DNA from: a bacterium
GTDB lineage: Bacteria; Bacillota; Clostridia; Lachnospirales; Lachnospiraceae
Length of the DNA stretch: 59,000 bases
Assembly (NCBI GenBank): GCA_023664305.1
Contig: JAMPFT010000021.1
Coordinates: 1 to 59,000, forward strand
Reading direction: 5' to 3'
Shown here: one piece after another, positions 911 through 55,880 of the stretch
How the letters are laid out: each line of letters opens with the position of its first letter
How positions within the stretch are numbered: the stretch's first letter is position 1
Position numbers and translations under genes: made by a program
The notes under the pieces: generated by a model
Seen by the model: the letters and a program-made list of their open reading frames with translations, nothing else
Told to the model about the DNA's origin: nothing
The model's database searches: none

Positions 911-919
911 TGATATAAT
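911..919 (+). promoter_or_regulatory. extended -10 promoter of the first leader element
   Basis: TG-A-TATAAT (911-919) is an extended -10 box; no good -35 is visible. Transcription should start near 926, exactly where the repeated leader sequence AAAGGGCAG begins. The same arrangement is seen at 55677-55685, and without the TG at 26110-26115. Confidence 0.65.
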
Positions 920-925
920 GTCCGT

Positions 926-1072
926 AAAGGGCAGAGTCAAGTGCCCGAAGAAACAGCTGCCGTGCTCGCACGAGCAGATGATTCTTCGGGGATTTGACGA
1001 GCGAGAGCGACAAAGGATGCAAAGCATCCTTGGGAAAACCGTAGGTTTTTCGGGGCTCTGCCCGGGATTTGC
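926..1072 (+). ncRNA. dispersed structured leader RNA, copy A (candidate)
   Basis: Not a family I can name. An outer helix P1 pairs 929-936 (GGGCAGAG) with 1056-1063 (CTCTGCCC). A long P2 pairs 937-952 with 982-997 with one G-G mismatch and one G-U pair, capped by a CTGC/GCAG and CGTG/CACG hairpin. Two further hairpins follow: 1013-1031 (AAGGATGC/GCATCCTT, AAA loop) and about 1035-1050 (AAAACC/GGTTTT). A conserved tail CGGGATTTGC follows P1. Copy B at 55692 and short copy C at 26125 share the promoter position, P1 and tail. It sits in the 5' leader of the L,D-transpeptidase gene. Open frames on the minus strand here are by-products of the repeat. Confidence 0.55.
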
Positions 1073-1146
1073 AGCTTCATGACATAATAACCGCAAGAGA
1101 AAACGGTTGAATATGAAAAATCGAAATGTACGGTGGAGAAAGACAT

Positions 1147-3213
1147 ATGAAAACGAGTCCTTTTAACGAAACAGAAGGAAAAGATACGGAGGCGGCGATT
1201 GAGGTGAAACGCACGGATTTGGAGAAGGCTGTCGAGTCGGAGGCAACGAAAGAAGAAGCGACGAATCAGGAAACGGCGGAAGCATCCAAAGAAAACGCGT
1301 CAGATCAGAAAATGCCGGAGAAAGCAGCGCCGGACAAAGAGGCGTCAGATCAGGAAGTGCCGGAGAAAGTAGCGCAGGACGAGAAAGCGTCAGACCAGGA
1401 GATGCCGGAGAAAGCAATGCAGGACGAGAAAGCGTCAGACCAGGAGATGCCGGAGAAAACAGCGTCGGACAAAGAGGTGTCAGATCAGAAGATGCCGGAG
1501 AAAGCAGTGTCGGACAAAGAGACATCAGATCAGGAGATGCCGGAGAAAGCAGCGTCGGACAAGGAAGCATCGGAACAAGGCTCGTCGAAGGAAGAAACCG
1601 CAGCGCAGGAAACGTCAAAAGAAGAAGCGGCCACACAGGACGCCCTTGAAAAACAGGAAGACGGTTCCGGCAAAGGGAAAAGGAAGGCACCTAAAATTAT
1701 TGCTGCGGTGATAGCGGTATTATTGGTTTTGACGGCGGCGGGCTATCTTGGAACGGCTTTTTTCTATCAATCCCGTTTTTTGCCCAACACGGTTATCAAC
1801 GGAGAGGCCTGCGGAAATCTGGAAGCTTCGGAGGTGGTTCTGCTGATCGATGCACAATTGGAGGATTATTCGCTTACGGTGACGGGACGCGACTATGCGA
1901 CATGTGAGCCGGACACCCTGCTGGGCGTGATCGAAGCCGAAGATGTGGCCTTGGCCTATGTGGATACCCTGGGGGCTGTAGAGGATGTATTGACGCAGCA
2001 GAATATGTTTTTATGGCCCCAGGCCTATTTTGGAAAGCAGACGGCGAGCTACTCTATTGTGCAGGGCGTTACCTTTGACGAAGAGCTGCTGAAGAACGTT
2101 GTGAGCGGGTGGGACAGCTGTCGGGTAAAAAATATGGTAAAACCGGCGGATGCCTATATCAGCGAGTATCAGGATGAAATCAACGGGTATGAGATTATCC
2201 CGGAGACGGCGGGAACAGTGCTGAATATGGACGCGGTGTTTGAATATGTGGCGGATTGCCTTTATGCGCACGAGGAGTCCCTTGATCTGGAAGAAATGCA
2301 GTGCTATGCGGAAGCGTCCCGAAAGAGTACGGATGAAAATCTGCGGGAGACGGTGGAGACCGTCAACAAATGGCTCGGAACGAAGATCGTCTATGACTGG
2401 AATGAAAACGAGGTAGTATTGGATGTGGAGACCTTGAAGGACTGGATCTCCATCGACGGGGATGAGGCGACGTTGGACGAGGAGGCTGTGGAAAAGTTTG
2501 TAAAGGCGCAGGCAAAGCAGTACGATACCTATGGAAAAAGAAAGAACTTTGTCACCGCGCTGGGGATCACGCTTAAGCTGCAGAGTCCGAATTACGGCTG
2601 GAAGACAGATACCGCGGCAGAGACGGAGGAGCTGATCAGCCTGATCAGGCAGGGAAGCGAGGAGACGAGGGAGCCCGTATACAGCGTAAAGGCATCCCAA
2701 AAGGGCGCGAATGATGTGGGGAACTCTTACATAGAGGCAGACTTGACGCACCAGCATCTTTATGTGCATGAAAAAGGCGAGATTGTGCTTGAGACGGATT
2801 TTGTCTCGGGAAAAATGAATTCCACTCCCGGCTGCGTGACGCCGGAGGGAATTTTCGGCCTGACTTATAAGACGCTTAACGCGGTACTGAGAGGAGCCGA
2901 CTATGAGACGCCTGTGAGCTACTGGATGCCGTTTTACGGAAACTACGGCATGCATGACGCTACCTGGAGAACCAATTTTGGCGGGACAATTTACAAGGAA
3001 CACGGTTCTCACGGCTGTATTAATCTGCCGGTAGATGCGGCCGCAGCAATTTACGGGTATGTGCATACCGGCTCTCCGGTGATTTGCTATTATTACGAGG
3101 TAGACCCGCTGGAAACGCCCGCGGAGACGCAGACGCTGACGGAGGAGGAATTGTTGAATCAGGAAGAGCCGAGTTTAAGTCAGCAGGCGGAACAGTCGCA
3201 GCAGACGCAATAA
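1147..3213 (+). CDS. membrane-anchored L,D-transpeptidase (YkuD) with repeat-rich N-terminus
   Basis: A 688-aa enzyme predicted to make 3-3 peptidoglycan crosslinks or attach substrates to stem peptides outside the membrane. Order: cytoplasmic acidic low-complexity region (residues 1-175, with six 15-residue repeats at 51-140); one membrane segment at about 183-207; two PG_binding_4-like regions; C-terminal YkuD domain with catalytic motif HGSHGCIN, Cys at about 624. A short acidic tail follows. The start at 1147 is preferred over the in-frame ATG at 1126 because GGAG lies 8 bases upstream of it. Its leader carries structured element copy A. The repeat region on the cytoplasmic side is odd for this family and looks like minisatellite expansion. 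Confidence 0.9.
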   Translation: MKTSPFNETEGKDTEAAIEVKRTDLEKAVESEATKEEATNQETAEASKENASDQKMPEKAAPDKEASDQEVPEKVAQDEKASDQEMPEKAMQDEKASDQEMPEKTASDKEVSDQKMPEKAVSDKETSDQEMPEKAASDKEASEQGSSKEETAAQETSKEEAATQDALEKQEDGSGKGKRKAPKIIAAVIAVLLVLTAAGYLGTAFFYQSRFLPNTVINGEACGNLEASEVVLLIDAQLEDYSLTVTGRDYATCEPDTLLGVIEAEDVALAYVDTLGAVEDVLTQQNMFLWPQAYFGKQTASYSIVQGVTFDEELLKNVVSGWDSCRVKNMVKPADAYISEYQDEINGYEIIPETAGTVLNMDAVFEYVADCLYAHEESLDLEEMQCYAEASRKSTDENLRETVETVNKWLGTKIVYDWNENEVVLDVETLKDWISIDGDEATLDEEAVEKFVKAQAKQYDTYGKRKNFVTALGITLKLQSPNYGWKTDTAAETEELISLIRQGSEETREPVYSVKASQKGANDVGNSYIEADLTHQHLYVHEKGEIVLETDFVSGKMNSTPGCVTPEGIFGLTYKTLNAVLRGADYETPVSYWMPFYGNYGMHDATWRTNFGGTIYKEHGSHGCINLPVDAAAAIYGYVHTGSPVICYYYEVDPLETPAETQTLTEEELLNQEEPSLSQQAEQSQQTQ
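1297..1566 (+). repeat. six 45-bp tandem repeats inside the L,D-transpeptidase gene
   Basis: Six contiguous imperfect 45-bp units encode 15-residue repeats of the form ASDQ(E/K)MPEKAxxDKE. Units differ by scattered substitutions but keep the frame. The encoded segment is charged, low in hydrophobic residues and probably disordered. Confidence 0.9.
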
Positions 3214-18327: not shown

Positions 18328-18725
18328 AAGCACCTCCTCGGCAATTTCAACCTTAACTCTCTTACTAATTATAATATGCAATACCTTAAAATTCAATCTG
18401 CTATTTCACTGAGTATGTTATTAATAACCTTATTCAGGGCGGGAAACGGCCGAATGGCCATCCATACCGTGATTGCGGAGCAATCATAGTATAATGTTGA
18501 CACGGAAATTCATCGTGTCAACTTTTGATGCCATGTGCGCCCAGCTTCAGATCAGCTACGAGAAACTGACGAAAAGGAGCGGGCCGGTTTGAAAAACGTG
18601 ATGAAAAAATCCGGCTTCTTTAAGGGTTTCCCCCTGGGTGGCCGGAAACAGAGATAGGTTATCGGAATGTTAGTTTTTCTTTTTTACGACAAACGTGGCG
18701 GTCATAATGACCGCCATGCCAATCT
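18328..18725. other. 398-base non-coding gap with promoter-like dyad
   Basis: TATAAT at 18490-18495 is followed by a perfect 8-bp dyad TTGACACG (18497-18504) / CGTGTCAA (18514-18521), an operator-like arrangement for a plus-strand transcript. A 19-codon ORF beginning near 18531 follows but is not recognisable. A decayed gene remnant is possible. Confidence 0.35.
18696..18716 (-). terminator. palindrome after the solute-binding-like lipoprotein gene
   Basis: Arms TGGCGGTCAT and ATGACCGCCA pair almost without a loop, 10 bases beyond the stop on the minus strand. The following minus-strand sequence is CGTTTGTCG, then an A-run, so the T-run is poor. Confidence 0.45.
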
Positions 18726-26109: not shown

Positions 26110-26170
26110 TATAATAATGTGCGTAAAGGGCAGGCGACAGGAGTTTTGGGGGCTCTGCCCGGGACTTGCC
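26110..26170 (+). ncRNA. dispersed leader element, short copy C, with -10 box
   Basis: TATAAT at 26110-26115, then AAAGGGCAG from 26125. P1 pairs GGGCAG (26128-26133) with CTGCCC (26155-26160) and the conserved tail CGGGACTTGCC follows. Everything that forms P2 and the later hairpins in copies A and B is missing, leaving a 21-base loop. It is the leader of rsmI. Confidence 0.5.
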
Positions 26171-26203
26171 GCCGTTTACACGGCCGGGCGGGAAGGAGAG
26201 AAT

Positions 26204-55676: not shown

Positions 55677-55820
55677 TGGTATAATATCCGCAAAGGGCAG
55701 AGTCAAGTGCCCGAAAAAACAGCTGCCGTGCTTGCACGAGTAGATGATTCTTCGGGCATTTGACGAGCGAAGCGGCCCCGGAAAACCAACGGTTTTTCGG
55801 GGCTCTGCCCGGGACTTGCC
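55677..55820 (+). ncRNA. dispersed structured leader RNA, copy B, with extended -10
   Basis: TG-G-TATAAT (55677-55685) precedes AAAGGGCAGAG from 55692. P1 pairs 55695-55702 with 55803-55810. P2 pairs 55703-55718 with 55748-55763; the G-G mismatch of copy A is a G-C pair here, while another pair becomes A-C. The P2 hairpin keeps CGTG/CACG and has G-U where copy A has G-C. The third helix is one long hairpin (CCCCG.AAAACC / GGTTTT.CGGGG) instead of two. The tail CGGGACTTGCC is conserved. It precedes the DUF5711-like gene. Confidence 0.6.
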
Positions 55821-55880
55821 AATAACCTTATTCGGGACAACAGACAGCCGTCCGGCGTTATAAAATGATGTGGAGGCAGC

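Follow-up and report, generated by a model that had tools for sequence, protein, structure and literature searches.

Many unrelated genes of gut Lachnospiraceae are preceded, at a set distance from the promoter, by a structured RNA for which Rfam gives no match at threshold. We consider it somewhat more probable than not that this is a putatively non-coding, MITE-like leader repeat that inserts 3' of -10 boxes and would act as a gene-independent cap or boundary of the mRNA. In the window, by which we mean the whole stretch of DNA analysed (positions 1 to 59,000 of the forward strand of contig JAMPFT010000021.1, assembly GCA_023664305.1, Lachnospiraceae), one structured repeat family unites the segments 911-1074 (copy A), 26110-26171 (copy B) and 55677-55821 (copy C).

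Three copies of the repeat in the window

An earlier note on this DNA had described a TGnTATAAT box followed by a structured RNA at 911 and at 55677, together with a stripped version at 26110, each leading into a different gene. All three units are as described, and Pfam identifies the genes as a YkuD L,D-transpeptidase, a DUF5711 gene and an RsmI-type TP_methylase. All features given here lie on the plus strand. Copy A carries the extended -10 box TGATATAAT (TGaTATAAT) at 911..919, which has a single counterpart in an orthologous empty site (see below), and transcription is predicted to start near 926. Its structured element spans 929..1063 (158.8 bits) and folds into P1 (929-936 with 1056-1063), P2 (936-998), a mini-hairpin (999-1010), an extra hairpin (1013-1031) and P3 (about 1032-1051). 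A second -10-like box, TGACATAAT at 1080..1088, lies 16 nt after P1' and is a direct repeat of 911-919 with one mismatch. The L,D-transpeptidase gene (PF03734) follows at 1147..3213, the start at 1147 being our choice within an ORF that opens at 1126.

Copy C has its extended -10 box TGGTATAAT at 55677..55685, the place at which empty orthologous sites carry a native -10. Transcription would start at about 55692, and the element itself occupies 55695..55810 (170.1 bits), with P1 at 55695-55702 paired with 55803-55810 and P2 at 55702-55764, upstream of the DUF5711 gene (PF18975, 55881..57077). Copy B (26110..26171) is a deletion derivative in which P2 is gone while the -10, P1/P1' (26128-26133 with 26155-26160) and a 3' tail with CGGGACTTGCC are kept, and it scores 31.3 bits with model R1. 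It precedes the methylase gene (PF00590, 26204..27043), and the same stripped form is found before the same gene at another locus (L018). Copies A and C are predicted to fold far more stably than their shuffles (z -7.1 and -7.8, respectively), which the stripped copy B does not (z -1.3). A consensus scan for -35 boxes gave no promoter pair in the two regions tried.

Family size and distribution

The family is not confined to the three copies first reported. Two pattern searches of the own genome, whose patterns contained no promoter sequence, revealed further copies, and a scan of named assemblies located copies in Roseburia sp. NALB_7963_7, Lachnoclostridium sp. NALB_7823_23 and Lachnospiraceae ABMPRH_260_1; a match in UBA7784 from the same scan had no element in the surrounding sequence. 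When the own genome was searched with model R1, built from 14 copies, 23 matches came up. Ten of these reach 107 bits or more, copies A and C included; five score lower and lie on the element's coding strand, copy B among them; and eight are reverse-strand readings of the palindromic P2. Besides A, B and C, the genome has eight strong and about four weaker copies. Inspection by eye showed one of the weaker matches, L047, to be a class II copy downstream of a terminator.

Beyond the own genome, R1 matched at least 32 of 200 genomes of the bacterial family (31 of 199 genera) and 23 of 40 genomes of the genus, some of the genomes so counted matching through a P2-like hairpin alone. The flank-free model R2, which runs from P1 to P1', detected the element at E up to 1e-6 in at least 61 of 397 genomes of the family (56 of 334 genera) and in at least two of 398 genomes drawn from the phylum, both members of the own family. 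For sets of more than 40 genomes, strict filters limited scoring to 9 or 15 candidates per genome, so that the genome and copy counts there are lower bounds.

The copy set used below comprises 98 copies, that is, 103 matches minus five reverse-strand or truncated ones. One of them, L021, is the same DNA as L100; it was dropped from the 97-copy placement, flank-identity, -10-repeat and trimming sets and is still within the 98 of the P2-length and the downstream- and upstream-gene counts. Elsewhere, L276 and L305 (G1061 C1:1720 and C1:3637066), near opposite ends of one contig, are identical in element and flanks.

A fold with a fixed-length arm

In the fold, P1 (GGGCAGAG/CTCTGCCC) closes a junction that bears P2, a mini-hairpin GC(GAA)GC and P3. 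The unit enclosed by the P1 arms is about 116 nt long, and the whole unit measures 116-165 nt. The helix first read as a 16-base P2 does exist, but those 16 bp are merely one stretch of a 29-bp arm with one bulge and a CUUG tip, whose sequence is almost free and whose length is fixed. Indeed, P2 is exactly 63 nt long in 59 of the 98 copies and 62-66 nt in 85, three copies giving no value. Extra hairpins of about 22 nt are inserted at the P2 tip of L006, L027 and L037, and P2 reaches 118 nt in L058, so insertions seem to be accommodated mainly at the end of the arm. Seven copies (L055, L057, L082, L083, L106, L110 and L113) are followed on the 3' side by partial tandem duplications, either of the 3' half or from the P2 tip to the end, which create several alternative P1' strands.

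In alignment A6 (27 diverse rows, out of 29 trimmed copies), the cells of P1, P2, the mini-hairpin and P3 are paired in 91.2% of cases, versus 71.5% in shuffles and 31-45% in slid versions, and 264 cells carry double changes, versus 70 in shuffles; none of 500 shuffles reaches either value. A separate count on P2, with 30 arms of less than 80% identity taken from the 59 arms of exactly 63 nt, gives 92% paired versus 66% shuffled, and 230 double changes versus 62. The earlier note had held that a lack of covariation would speak against its element; covariation lies above every shuffle, and at the level of sequence it shows a fold kept by selection. Furthermore, mispairs on the sense strand are 61 G-U versus 22 A-C, the ratio in shuffles being 142:105 (sign test over columns, p = 0.04), an asymmetry that moderately favours structure in the RNA.

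Two further structures were considered and rejected. For a pseudoknot between the P2 loop and the mini-hairpin, loop and hairpin are without matching variation. In class II copies, the string CUGACGA-GC-NNN-GC-GAAC resembles a hammerhead core, but the bases concerned covary as plain P2 pairs, changing from U-A to C-G at P2 pair 2-62 (compare L157).

Placement at transcript boundaries

The spacing between the end of an exact TATAAT and P1 is 9 nt in 57 of 97 copies; any other distance within 60 nt occurs at most three times. We defined a boundary as a -10 box with at most one mismatch, a T-tract, or the stop codon of an open frame of at least 100 codons. By this rule, 94 of the 97 copies start at a boundary, versus 9 to 35 of 93-96 at five shifted positions (the highest at -60). 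The boundaries are of three kinds, namely 9 nt after a TATAAT, just past a leader terminator, often that of a T-box, and at an upstream stop codon. In the flank-free R2 set, which is partly independent as eight of its 48 copies were already in the first set, 41 of 48 start at a boundary, versus 4 to 8 of 47-48 at shifted positions. The copies are thus far from randomly placed, and random placement had been the other finding expected to weigh against the element.

Six of the ten T-tract copies in the first set lie behind a T-box leader (L038, L110, L112, L115, L138 and L157) and a seventh, L099, behind an L10 leader; for the remaining three (L062, L142 and L151) no such leader matched at E up to 0.1. 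Copies L044, L049 and L158 also lie after T-box leaders.

By a crude ORF call on the 98 copies, the downstream gene is on the same strand for 77, on the opposite strand for 19 and absent for two (of the opposite calls, those for copy C and L038 at least are wrong); the upstream gene is on the same strand for 53, opposite for 44 and absent for one. The genes downstream look unrelated and share no metabolic context. Judging by their starts, we take the proteins to be aminoacyl-tRNA synthetases, DeoB, MutS2, LepA, kinases, regulators and others. This diversity bears on two readings of the leader. A metabolite riboswitch or attenuator, which would account for a structured 5' leader, appears most improbable, given that the downstream genes have no pathway in common, that the sequence of P2 is free, and that the sole terminator-like hit in each of copies A and C falls inside P2. 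In processive antitermination, the RNA would load onto RNA polymerase and resist downstream termination; the position of the copies at the start of untranslated segments would suit such a role, and the mixture of downstream genes argues against it, leaving it very unlikely. The original suggestion of a mobile or duplicated leader, or of a new structured RNA family outside the known riboswitches, is in keeping with the sequence evidence.

Probable insertion at -10 boxes

Copies A, L001 and L007 share 98.7-99.3% identity within the element and 24-33% in their flanks. Identity of the P2 arm averages 0.67 within genomes (223 pairs) versus 0.49 between genomes (4241 pairs), a difference reached in none of 500 permutations. 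This likeness is carried by some genomes, since several others show little or no excess: within-genome identity is high in the own genome (0.80), NALB7963 (0.89), G218 (0.85), G219 (0.73) and G099 (0.88), it is 0.52-0.57 in G022, G225, G229, G230, G237 and G204, and it is about 0.4 in G200 and G208 (one pair each).

Orthologous loci provide filled and empty sites. At the DUF5711 locus, R2 found the element in at least four of 30 fetched orthologues (L198, L208, L210 and L226), all with the order LysM gene stop, -10 and element start; the -10 is TGGTATAAT in three and TGATATACT in L226 (TATACT). Most other DUF5711 loci are empty, the TGnTATAAT-like box there leading into a short native leader. 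At the YkuD locus of copy A, at least two of 30 orthologues carry the element (L310 and L337), a lower bound as 12 of the 30 loci were read by eye and some fetched loci are cut upstream. L337 has the same upstream promoter region as the copy A locus and a different P2 sequence. The empty relative L312 reads CATGCTATAATAAC, whereas the window reads CATGATATAAT, element, CATGACATAATAAC, as expected from duplication of the -10. At the valS locus, at least two of 30 loci are filled (L228 and L242), again a lower bound, since several of the 30 had a misplaced start codon; in L229, with a 99% identical valS fragment, a remnant of the element is all that is left.

Among the 59 class I copies, 15 have a -10-like hexamer 16-17 nt after P1', other offsets occurring at most twice each, and in the other 44 no second -10 is recognisable. 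A stricter test for the repeated -10 gives 11 of 59 versus 0 to 1 of 57-59. Of the 15 second boxes, 12 agree with the first at the third base, a figure inflated by related copies. No direct repeat was seen in the few T-tract and stop-codon copies read by eye. Taken together, empty orthologous sites, the repeated -10 and near-identical copies in unrelated flanks indicate insertion. For orthologous loci that in different species are filled with elements of different sequence, an old insertion followed by change is indistinguishable from repeated insertion.

Other repeats use the same places. At four DUF5711 loci (L199, L203, L216 and L219), other repeats sit at the same -10, between two TGnTATAAT-like boxes. 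At least three unrelated hairpin repeats share this insertion point, as would be seen if -10 boxes served generally as insertion sites in this genus. The position behind the valS T-box terminator that the element fills in L228 and L242 is taken up by other hairpin-rich repeats in L235, L243 and L248. The window itself holds, at 18426-18521, a different repeat (CCTTATTCAGGGCGGGAAACGGCCGAATGGCCATCCATACCGTGATTGC..GCAATCATAGTATAATG) and then a second hairpin (TTGACACGGAAATTCATCGTGTCAA); the former of the two also occurs at the DUF5711 -10 in L199 and at a contig start upstream of YkuD in L311, both from the same related genome.

As in MITEs, the unit is short, has inverted repeats near its ends (the P1 arms) and presents filled and empty sites; the copies are not A+T-rich, their G+C content being mostly about 0.45-0.6 (range 0.38-0.64). 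A purely selfish MITE would also fit these data. Its hairpins would serve transposition as single-stranded or cruciform DNA, the -10 would be the target and alone fix the orientation, and the RNA would be inert. Empty sites, -10 duplication, recent dispersal and the other repeat kinds at the same -10 all agree with this, as does the orientation, which a directional target would explain. However, the excess of G-U over A-C moderately favours structure in the sense strand, the length of P2 is kept while its sequence is free, and placement at stop codons and T-tracts does not follow from a -10 target, so that we regard this reading as possible but unlikely. Were it correct, the element would be a mobile one tuned to harmless landing at promoters.

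A possible role in mRNA stability or processing

Under the explanation we favour, that of an mRNA cap or boundary, a putatively non-coding repeat of about 150 bp would be moved by a transposase in trans and insert directly 3' of -10 boxes or, in subfamilies, immediately past a leader terminator or at the stop codon upstream. The repeat would thereby form the 5'-most segment of an unrelated gene's untranslated leader and be transcribed with it, the RNA closing on itself through P1 about 3 nt from the predicted 5' end and bearing the rigid 29-bp arm. Acting in cis, this cap or boundary would set the stability or processing of the downstream mRNA, possibly by blocking 5'-to-3' decay or through an RNase III cut in P2. 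An RNase III site alone was rejected as the full explanation, for it accounts for the long helix and not for the conserved tip and junction, and it is kept as one possible action. The role in decay or processing is drawn from analogy with Correia/NEMIS and ERIC elements, in whose mRNAs RNase cuts are reported in the accessible text of the papers cited (PMC2229807, PMC10969869), and with BOX elements, one of which is found between T-box leaders; by this analogy, the element probably protects or processes mRNAs. If decay of the mRNA is indeed under its control, the element would amount to a regulator tied to no particular gene and spread by insertion.

Relation to Clostridiales-1 RNA

The nearest Rfam family is Clostridiales-1 (RF01699, gathering cut-off 48 bits). 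Rfam gave no above-threshold match to the element in the window, copy A had none to RF01699 at E up to 5, and a search of the whole own genome with RF01699 was likewise negative at E up to 1. Below threshold, RF01699 does match class II copies and other divergent ones, the best at 47.6 bits. These scores are partly a hairpin effect, since long hairpins raise microRNA families too; the Rfam score alone was rejected as proof of kinship, microRNA families scoring on the same hairpins.

True copies of Clostridiales-1 exceed the cut-off in at least 41 of 295 genomes of the order. In 28 of its loci (two of 30 were cut by contig ends and dropped), P2 is 56-65 nt long, a GCUUGC loop occurs in 19 and the start lies at a boundary in 21, versus 1 to 5 of 28 at shifted positions. 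The reciprocal search with R2 gave weak hits in seven of the 28 loci, the best at 28.9 bits, of which four cover P2 only and four lie on the opposite strand. Both families have a junction closed by P1, a long covarying P2 with a GCUUGC-type tip, many copies per genome and starts at boundaries. They differ in that the P3/P4 domains of RF01699, with their conserved internal loops, are missing or reduced in our repeat: the window copies yield no RF01699 alignment at all, and in the alignments obtained the P3/P4 positions are mostly empty (L044, L049 and L054) or partly so (L063 and L070).

That our repeat is a divergent branch of Clostridiales-1 with the function of that family, a question of kinship compatible with the other readings, strikes us as rather doubtful. 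The sub-threshold matches up to 47.6 bits, the CUUG-type P2 of 56-65 nt and the common placement rule speak for it, and the lack of any own-genome match at E up to 1, the weak reciprocal hits and the hairpin share in the scores speak against it. Owing to the shared architecture and placement and the weak reciprocal R2 hits, the two are treated here as related in build and placement only, and the repeat is not filed under RF01699. In the accessible part of its description, Clostridiales-1 was listed by Weinberg et al. in 2010 as probably an RNA and probably not cis-regulatory (PMC2864571). Its boundary placement calls the latter statement into question, and the boundary rule suggests how this RNA, listed without a function, may act.

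A broader idea, to which we give little credence, is that the architecture common to both families defines a portable mRNA boundary element, which inserts at -10 boxes and whose fixed-length helix blocks or directs decay. If true, such an element would sit genome-wide at the transcription start, after the leader terminator and after the stop codon, as a bacterial counterpart of decay-resistant viral RNAs.

Comparison with other structured repeats

A search of openly accessible article text, supplements apart, gave no description of this repeat family or of the boundary rule, and the comparisons below follow the accessible text of the papers cited. The Correia/NEMIS elements of Neisseria are short mobile repeats that carry or create promoters, fold in mRNA and are cut by RNase III (PMC2229807, PMC10969869; cf. 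PMC2649163). Like our repeat, they are mobile, lie upstream of genes and fold in the transcript; unlike it, they belong to different bacteria, differ in sequence, have no fixed distance to a native -10 as far as these sources describe, and appear there without a multi-helix junction bearing a fixed-length arm of free sequence. ERIC/IRU and YPAL of Yersinia are structured repeats tied to mRNA stability, YPAL with target duplications of 3-26 bp (PMC2229807), and as presented in that source they act mainly on upstream transcripts and have no promoter link, in contrast to the present element. The BOX elements of Streptococcus pneumoniae are structured repeats, likewise dispersed, that are transcribed along with genes as 5' or 3' extensions, and one of them sits between two T-box leaders (PMC3049150); they differ from the repeat described here in their modular A-B-C build with variable B copies and, in the same account, in having no single start rule.
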